Below, one piece after another: positions 34,354 to 48,128 of a stretch of DNA of 64,000 bases (the stretch's first letter is position 1; each line of letters opens with the position of its first letter). Origin of the DNA: Candidatus Peregrinibacteria bacterium (lineage in GTDB: Bacteria; Patescibacteriota; Gracilibacteria; UBA1369; LOWO2-01-FULL-3); contig JABILX010000004.1 of NCBI GenBank assembly GCA_018654255.1, positions 1-64,000 on the forward strand. Direction: 5' to 3'. The notes beneath the pieces are model-generated. The model searched no databases. It worked only from the letters and a program-made list of their open reading frames with translations, and was not told the origin of the DNA. The position numbers and the translations under genes are program-made.

Positions 34354-34976
34354 CATCTCATCCACCACTTTCGTGGCCCCTTTCGGGTTTGTAAGCTGGA
34401 CTATCCCTTCATCCTGCGAAAGCAGGACGTCTACCGTCTAGTCTCTACACCTTCAACCGCCTAAGGCGGAAGCTTGGCTCGGGATTGTCATAGTTCGCTA
34501 GTTGCGAACCTTAGATTTCCCCGAATTTGATAGATTATACTTTAGAGATTACTCTCTAAGCAGCCCTTTGAAGCAAAACCGTATCGTGTTACAATCCAGT
34601 TATGAAAGAAATCATAAACTGTAAAATTTGCGGGTGTAAACTGGAAGGAAAACAGACATTATATTGTAGTACAATCTGTAAAAATAAAGCTCATCAGAGC
34701 TATGAAGCTCAAAAAGATAGGGGTCTTCATAGAAAAATAAAACTAGTGACAGAATCCGGAGGACAATGCTCAGTTTGTGGATACAAAAAGAATCTTGCCG
34801 CTCTCACATTCCATCATAAAGACCCTAGTAAGAAAGAATTCAAATTAGATATGAGATCTTTGTCTAATAGGAAACTTTCTCGGATAAATGATGAGCTCAG
34901 AAAATGTACGCTTATCTGTCATAACTGTCATGCAGAATTACATCACCCACAGCACGACTTAGAATCTACTTCCTTA
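34354..34976 (-). ncRNA. Group I self-splicing intron (IC3-like) in tRNA-Ile(CAU)
   Basis: 623 nt. The 3' half carries the conserved core: CGGGGAAATCTAAGG (P4/P5 side), GACAATCCCGAGCCAAGC, GAAGGTGTAGAGACTAGACG (P7 side), AAGGGATAGTCC (P7 partner), then P9 hairpins and a terminal G before the 3' exon. The order and wording match cyanobacterial tRNA-Leu introns of subgroup IC3. The last base of the 5' exon is U, as group I splicing requires. I could not settle the P1/guide pairing. The 5' half is taken up by an HNH gene on the opposite strand. Confidence 0.85.
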
Positions 34977-34991
34977 AGCCGACTGCTCTAA
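34602..34991 (+). CDS. HNH homing-type endonuclease inside the intron, antisense
   Basis: 129 aa. An N-terminal zinc-finger-like CKICGCKLEGKQTLYCSTICKNK (four Cys) is followed by the HNH core: CSVCGYKKN, LTFHHKDPSKKEF and CTLICHNCHAELHHP. Such enzymes spread introns by cutting intron-less target genes. It is encoded on the strand opposite to the tRNA and intron, so it needs its own promoter. Its last five codons (15 nt) run into the tRNA 5' exon, so the tRNA D-arm sequence also encodes the end of the protein and its stop. Confidence 0.85.
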   Translation: MKEIINCKICGCKLEGKQTLYCSTICKNKAHQSYEAQKDRGLHRKIKLVTESGGQCSVCGYKKNLAALTFHHKDPSKKEFKLDMRSLSNRKLSRINDELRKCTLICHNCHAELHHPQHDLESTSLSRLL

Positions 34992-35030
34992 CCCCTGAGC
35001 TACAGGCCCAAATTTTCAATGTGCAAAAGA

Positions 35031-35432: not shown

Positions 35433-35456
35433 ACAGATTTACCTGGGACTCAAGGT

Positions 35457-35516
35457 TTAATCCGGATTAAAATTAACAGGTTAAAGCCAACAGGTTAAAA
35501 AATTAATCCGGATTAA
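35457..35516. repeat. Palindrome-armed intergenic element, copy A
   Basis: Two identical perfect palindromes TTAATCCGGATTAA (35457-35470 and 35503-35516) enclose two copies of AACAGGTTAAA. Because each arm is its own reverse complement, the two arms can also pair as a 14-bp stem. A second element with the same core but different arms lies at 47096-47150. Another partial arm (GGATTAA) follows at 35525. Confidence 0.6.
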
Positions 35517-47003: not shown

Positions 47004-47095
47004 ATGGAATGGGGGATAAGGTCGAAACAAAGATATAATACAACAAACAAAAGTGCAAATTTTTGTTTAGCTTTCCCGGGGAAGAATCCGGTATC

Positions 47096-47150
47096 TCCCC
47101 GGGGAAAAAGTTACAGGTTAAAACAACAGGTTAGGCTCTCTCCCCGGGGA
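47096..47150. repeat. Palindrome-armed intergenic element, copy B
   Basis: Palindromes TCCCCGGGGA at 47096-47105 and 47141-47150 (within the 15-nt direct repeat TCTCCCCGGGGAAAA) enclose TTACAGGTTAAAA and CAACAGGTTAG. The core is the same as element A at 35457-35516, with GC-rich instead of AT-rich arms. A further half-palindrome (TTTCCCGGGGAA) lies at 47072-47083 and TCCCCAGGG at 47163. Confidence 0.6.
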
Positions 47151-47198
47151 AAACCCAAAAAATCCCCAGGGCCGACAACATCCAACTCGCACCCAAAC

Positions 47199-48095: not shown

Positions 48096-48128
48096 GTAAA
48101 ATTACATAAAAACACAACCCTTAACAGG

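Follow-up and report, generated by a model that had tools for sequence, protein, structure and literature searches.

The window analysed here, a 64,000-nt stretch of a Candidatus Peregrinibacteria genome (positions 1 to 64000 of contig JABILX010000004.1, assembly GCA_018654255.1), carries two hairpin elements, designated A and B, the first of which lies between the divergent genes for ribosomal protein S20 and Maf. In each element two palindromic arms enclose a core with two copies of the tag CAGGTT:

35456–35516, plus strand: element A, a complete hairpin element (~61 nt) with the CAGGTT tag on the plus strand
35456–35471, no strand assigned: left palindromic arm of A, TTTAATCCGGATTAAA (sequence)
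35476–35497, plus strand: core of A with two tag copies, ACAGGTTAAAGCCAACAGGTTA (sequence and genome pattern matches)
35503–35516, no strand assigned: right palindromic arm of A, TTAATCCGGATTAA (sequence)
47073–47083, no strand assigned: third, imperfect arm beside B, TTCCCGGGGAA (sequence; minus-strand match of covariance model R2 at 47072–47106)
47096–47150, plus strand: element B, a hairpin element with arms unlike those of A (R2 match at 47095–47151)
47096–47105, no strand assigned: left palindromic arm of B, TCCCCGGGGA (sequence)
47113–47133, plus strand: core of B with two tag copies, ACAGGTTAAAACAACAGGTTA (sequence)
47141–47150, no strand assigned: right palindromic arm of B, TCCCCGGGGA (sequence)

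The layout of A is thus TTTAATCCGGATTAAA-ATTA-ACAGGTTAAAGCCAACAGGTTA-AAAAA-TTAATCCGGATTAA and that of B is TCCCCGGGGA-AAAAGTT-ACAGGTTAAAACAACAGGTTA-GGCTCTC-TCCCCGGGGA, with the extra imperfect arm upstream. Re-reading of the sequence bore out the positions and sequences given for both elements in a preliminary description, together with its statement that the two share a core and have swapped arms; the arms it reported for B were right, and the third arm at 47073–47083 had been overlooked. Over 266 kb in contig C1, only at A and B does a perfect palindrome of ≥10 nt recur identically at a centre-to-centre distance of 20–80 nt, and 20 first-order Markov simulations yielded no such pair. Outside B, TCCCCGGGGA occurs nowhere in the genome. 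Folded as single-stranded DNA, A reached −13.7 kcal/mol (z = −5.0 relative to shuffles).

Further features were observed in the window. At 914–983 an inverted repeat, TAGTGGCAA...TTGCCACTA, surrounds AACAGGTTG and has an inner GGGGA/TCCCC pair; it had no match in the R2 search and is possibly another arm type of the A/B family. The heptamer TTGCCAC also occurs twice directly after element A (35518 and 35533). A group I intron lies at 34374–34587 on the minus strand (Rfam RF00028, 69.6 bits), beside a small ORF with HNH-like residues (34602–34991, plus strand) and a tRNA-like sequence near 34980–35010, at which ARAGORN reported no intact tRNA. Possibly a tRNA gene is interrupted here by an intron that carries a homing endonuclease.

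The host genome (1.24 Mb in 9 contigs, 96% complete) holds 14 elements, of which six are A-armed, one is B-armed and seven were found by covariance model. Genome pattern searches, which the preliminary description had proposed as a check, located the five A-armed copies beyond A itself (C1:108004, C2:58498, C2:224563, C6:4203 and C9:64344). The palindromes of the A-type copies are spaced by exactly 46 nt in every case, while the inner spacers vary and the flanks are unrelated to one another; C2:224563 and C6:4203 are identical across the whole element at unrelated loci, and the right arm of C1:108004 has decayed to TCCGGAACAA. One more type in the host genome (G000) has the arms CCCGGTTA/TAACCGGG (L175). 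Elements generally measure ~50–60 nt, with mutually complementary arms, often perfect palindromes centred on CCGG, that enclose the CAGGTT tag, present twice within a longer loop in A and B and once in the other members. Copies are mostly intergenic, as judged by ORF inspection, and occur in both orientations; no target-site duplications were seen at the elements by eye.

The octamer AACAGGTT also occurs on its own. Solitary copies had been reported at three places in the window; those at 48123 and 5949 were confirmed, but no exact 8-mer is present before 63981, where CATACCTGTTAGG corresponds to AACAGGTA on the minus strand. The octamer is overrepresented in the window (12 observed, 2.55 expected) and ~2.5-fold in contig C1 (28 versus 11.2), an excess that the elements explain only in part. 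Most solitary copies in the window stand outside any obvious hairpin. Some solitary copies of AACAGGTT or TAACAGGTTA lie upstream of TATAAT-like sequences (window positions 48123 and 58028, and L004 downstream of its element), and may have a promoter-linked role or be decayed elements.

Since identical palindromic arms pair automatically, A and B alone cannot prove covariation; it is the other copies that prove it, among them some whose arms are not self-palindromic. Model R1, built from eight sequences of the type found beside RAYT2 and the RAYT of genome G018 (see below), showed pairing in 92% of alignment cells versus 70% after shuffling, and a covariation score of 0.698 versus 0.227. When applied to 30 genomes of the family it recovered more members, many with perfect palindromic arms centred on CCGG (e.g. 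CTCTCCGGAGAG, TTTTCCGGAAAA and AATCCCGGGATT). Model R2 comprised 19 members, with A and B excluded, in an alignment fitted to the structure. Pairing across these 19 elements was 92.3% versus 67.9% shuffled, double-sided changes were present in 9 of 11 pairs, and the covariation score was 0.759 versus 0.265, a value reached in none of 500 shuffles; it dropped to ≤0.25 once the partner columns were slid. An automatic MAFFT alignment of 20 elements contained end gaps and was left out of the pair counts.

An alignment-free comparison of 27 elements, anchored at their ends and bearing 18 distinct left arms, gave the same picture: on average 10.26 of 11 arm positions were paired, versus 6.82 ± 0.35 when right arms were swapped between elements (maximum 8.11 in 2000 swaps). 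The covariation of the arms that had been suspected from A and B is therefore confirmed by the other copies. Moreover, R2 recovered B, on which it had not been trained (E = 1.3e-4, 288 kb searched), and three A-type copies (E = 7e-4, 0.023 and 0.026); element A itself was not reported by this search. All seven elements tested folded better as single-stranded DNA than their shuffles (z = −2.3 to −5.9). The same inner tag is found with no fewer than 12 distinct perfect palindromes and with non-palindromic arms too. Its conservation is in part a product of the search, since the models that gathered the members contain the tag. Where arms are palindromic, self-folding of each arm and arm-to-arm pairing are indistinguishable (in elements whose two arms differ, 123 positions paired within arms and 113 between them); since arms of the RAYT2 type are not palindromes in themselves, the only form shared by every element is one long stem. 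The two tags and longer loop of A and B, compared with one tag elsewhere, leave room for A-type and model-type elements to be sister families rather than one.

Two genes for REP-associated tyrosine transposases (RAYTs) were identified in the host genome. RAYT1 (L005:1528–1986, minus strand, 152 aa) matched NCBIfam NF047646, 'REP-associated tyrosine transposase', with 85.8 bits (cut-off 80), as well as Pfam Y1_Tnp, while RAYT2 (C3:208166) scored 43.2 bits against NF047646, below the cut-off. The HuH histidines (H60 and H62) and the Y---NP residues (Y120, N124 and P125) are invariant in 12 aligned RAYTs, and Y120 of RAYT1 aligns with Y115 of Escherichia coli TnpA-REP (4er8), the catalytic tyrosine, whose Y115F substitution yields the catalytic mutant (PMC8266576). 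A loss of the catalytic tyrosine in RAYT1, considered on the basis of LQASHSRHFN where its relatives have LQxSYAxYFN, was rejected, since by the 4er8 alignment Y120 in NYVINNP is intact.

Elements adjoin both genes. The C6 copy overlaps the RAYT1 stop codon, such that the C-terminal end of the protein, INPD*, is encoded by the palindrome itself (ATT-AAT-CCG-GAT-TAA), and an element of the form TTTCCCGACATT-TCGTTTTCTTCAGGTTCGGAATTTG-AATGTCGGGAAA lies ~90–140 nt upstream of RAYT2. RAYT1 has an element on its 3' side only and RAYT2 on its 5' side only, with no complete flanked unit. The flanks of RAYT2 offered no source for B's CCCCGGGG arms, and no RAYT with such arms was found in the host genome; B is therefore probably an older copy or derived from another RAYT's set. 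A plain scan for pairs of identical palindromes reported none beside RAYT2 or the RAYTs of genomes G018 and G007, a silence that means little because the C6 pair was missed as well owing to its distance and core settings.

The RAYT2 locus has a likely ortholog in G018, a genome of a related genus, since both genes lie between mfd and EF-P (neighbours identified by eye) and the two RAYTs share 45% identity. At the corresponding upstream position G018 carries TTTTCCACGGC-CGGATTTTTTACAGGTTGGGTTTCTGGA-GCCGTGGAAAA: both arms have been exchanged for others (TTTCCCGACATT versus TTTTCCACGGC), with pairing intact and the loop tag kept. Dispersed copies carry the arm type of their own genome (three in G000, four in G018). 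An apparently orthologous RAYT locus is thus found in two genera with its arms replaced in step.

The same association extends to further genomes. Run with stricter filters on 353 genomes of the class, R2 matched at least twice in just four of them, G000 (7), G018 (14), G007 (2) and G033 (15), and gave a single weak match in eight others. RAYT matches were obtained in G000, G018 and G033, and a broken RAYT-like gene in G007. RAYTs were surveyed in the order alone, where either search found them in 20 of 89 genomes, so the scope of the association of RAYT and element is the order. Elements lie within ~150 nt of RAYT2, its G018 ortholog and the truncated RAYT of G033; overall, an element accompanies four of the six RAYT genes or remnants of the type, versus a chance of ~0.4% each as estimated from copy density. 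G033, from a different family within the order, has arms of its own (e.g. TGGTCCGGACCA and AATTCCGGAATC). The open frame of its RAYT (L248 1026–1336) starts inside the element and is without the first ~36 residues; it looks as though the element had taken the place of, or cut off, the 5' end of the transposase gene it belongs with. The exact core pattern had no matches in 98 relatives because arms and loop spacing vary; the covariance model alone reached these genomes. RAYTs from the rest of the order and from other phyla are flanked by varied inverted or palindromic repeats (e.g. AAACCTCCGAGGTTT in Ignavibacteria), some of them in pairs ~40–50 nt apart, and several more distant RAYTs have repeats on both sides, with GGGGWSAS around some.

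Other arrangements were seen in G018. Its second RAYT has an ~80-nt direct repeat on both sides (L035 1326–1410 and 1920–2001), TTCCGGAAGG...TTTTTAGGTGT-TGTCCGGGG...CCGGACAA...TTCCGGGAA, a related but different element without an R2 match. At L209 501–683 several arms and tags stand in tandem, resembling a REP cluster.

Because the elements sit beside REP-type transposase genes, miniature mobile DNA is the most likely explanation for them, rather than RNA. Our favoured reading, to which we assign a probability of roughly 80%, is that A and B are low-copy, REPIN/TIR-like, non-autonomous miniature elements dispersed by a RAYT/TnpA-REP (HuH-Y1) enzyme encoded elsewhere in the genome. Mobilisation would take place in single-stranded form. 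When the strand becomes single, the arms would fold as one long stem or as one small hairpin each; the RAYT would bind the hairpin, nick it with its catalytic tyrosine and paste it elsewhere. The CAGGTT tag would confer strand and position specificity, like GTAG in classical REPs, and arm sequence could drift as long as pairing is kept, giving rise to the same core with swapped arms. As arm types outnumber RAYT genes, the RAYTs of some elements may have been lost, leaving these elements as relics. More tentatively, and with rather less than even odds, the RAYTs of this lineage may recognise the inner CAGGTT (probably a guide or cleavage motif) and arms that are merely paired, each genome rapidly evolving its own arm sets; such recognition would leave arm sequence nearly free.

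Among the alternatives, the one that fares best, though improbable, is that these are immobile REP/TIR relics which now act as transcription-termination or mRNA-stability hairpins. The degenerate state of some copies (C1:108004, with its right arm TCCGGAACAA) and the want of a cognate RAYT for B in the genome fit this idea, and REPs elsewhere have been credited with such roles (PMC3733652, PMC8266576). However, the sequence has no T-tract 3' of A or B, and the two identical A-type copies imply recent spread.

A structured RNA with a conserved loop and variable stem (a regulatory leader, small RNA or 3'-end stabiliser) is slightly less probable still. Strong compensatory arm changes around a conserved loop are the usual signature of RNA structure, and some copies directly follow a gene or precede a start codon; stem covariation of this kind is, however, not peculiar to RNA and can arise in mobile single-stranded DNA. 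Gene orientation is inconsistent, with copies in both orientations and B, C6, L172, L209, L215 and L221 antisense to both neighbours (gene calls by ORF length). Neighbouring genes likewise have no common theme, an Rfam search matched neither A nor B, and the element is not conserved across relatives, nearly all of those that have no RAYT being without it. Identical copies stand at unrelated loci, one of them adjoining a transposase. Of the two readings left side by side in the preliminary description, structured RNA or mobile miniature element, the latter is supported by the RAYT linkage, the identical copies, the mixed orientation and the near-restriction to RAYT-bearing genomes; the former gains no independent support, and antisense copies and the RAYT-less relatives speak against it. 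Paired operator sites of a DNA-binding regulator, i.e. identical palindromes ~46 nt apart around direct repeats, would suit the perfect dyad symmetry, the exact 46-nt spacing of A-type copies and the divergent S20 and Maf genes beside A, but are the least credible reading given at least 12 different perfect palindromes plus non-palindromic arms around the same tag, copies at 3' ends and within the RAYT stop codon, and neighbours unlike a regulon.

As miniature mobile DNA, the elements can be compared with several known systems. What is known of RAYT/REP systems comes mostly from proteobacteria, where the repeats are GTAG-tagged and high in copy number; our literature search turned up nothing relevant on RAYT or REP in CPR/Patescibacteria. 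Classical GTAG REPs usually number >100 copies per genome, whereas ~14 are present here in 1.24 Mb; the elements share with them the extragenic, hairpin-forming palindrome, but GT[AG]G, which in those REPs stands 0–2 nt 5' of the hairpin, was found at an outer foot in only one of 39 elements. The proteins have the HuH and Y---NP motifs of RAYT/TnpA-REP enzymes and, for RAYT1, the family score, that of RAYT2 being below the cut-off. As in REPINs (Bertels and Rainey 2011, PMC3116915), inverted or palindromic units are paired around a spacer, fold as single-stranded hairpins and are extragenic, and the RAYT gene has copies of the same element in its flank, each RAYT with its own set. Unlike REPINs, which occur in hundreds of copies, the present elements number ~14 and lack the GT[AG]G foot; moreover, REPINs conserve their ends while the spacer varies, whereas here the spacer CAGGTT is strongly conserved and the arms vary.

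TIRtrons, or TIRYT (Di Nocera et al. 2013, PMC3733652), are alike in that their RAYT-like genes are accompanied by inverted repeats that bear no relation to GTAG REPs. These repeats occur in dimers; some are wholly self-complementary, and some overlap the 3' end of the gene. The varied RAYT-flanking repeats in the order and in other phyla agree with that picture. They differ in that inverted repeats lie on both sides of the RAYT, as opposed to one side here, and in GGGGWSAS, reported there in the majority of TIRs and absent on inspection of our element sequences; a conserved tag inside the dimer does not appear in the available part of the description. TnpA-REP subclass 2.6/class 3 (Quentin et al. 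2018, PMC6006769) likewise has RAYT-like genes with atypical flanking secondary structures that are without GT[AG]G and, in the available part of the report, have no inner CAGGTT tag. The ends of IS200/IS605 elements (IS608, ISDra2) share the HuH-Y1 enzyme and hairpins near the ends; unlike an IS, A- and B-type elements hold no transposase gene.

Low copy number, a missing GT[AG]G foot and a conserved tag between the arms are the features of this variant that are new here. They are combined in a 1.24-Mb genome that has a pair of RAYT genes and around twelve hairpins, in which arms change completely while pairing and inner tag stay fixed. These hairpins offer a ready-made series of compensatory arm variants that could show what a RAYT reads (arms, structure or tag). 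If recognition is indeed based on the tag, the layout would be inverted with respect to classical REPs, with their conserved foot and family-specific stem.
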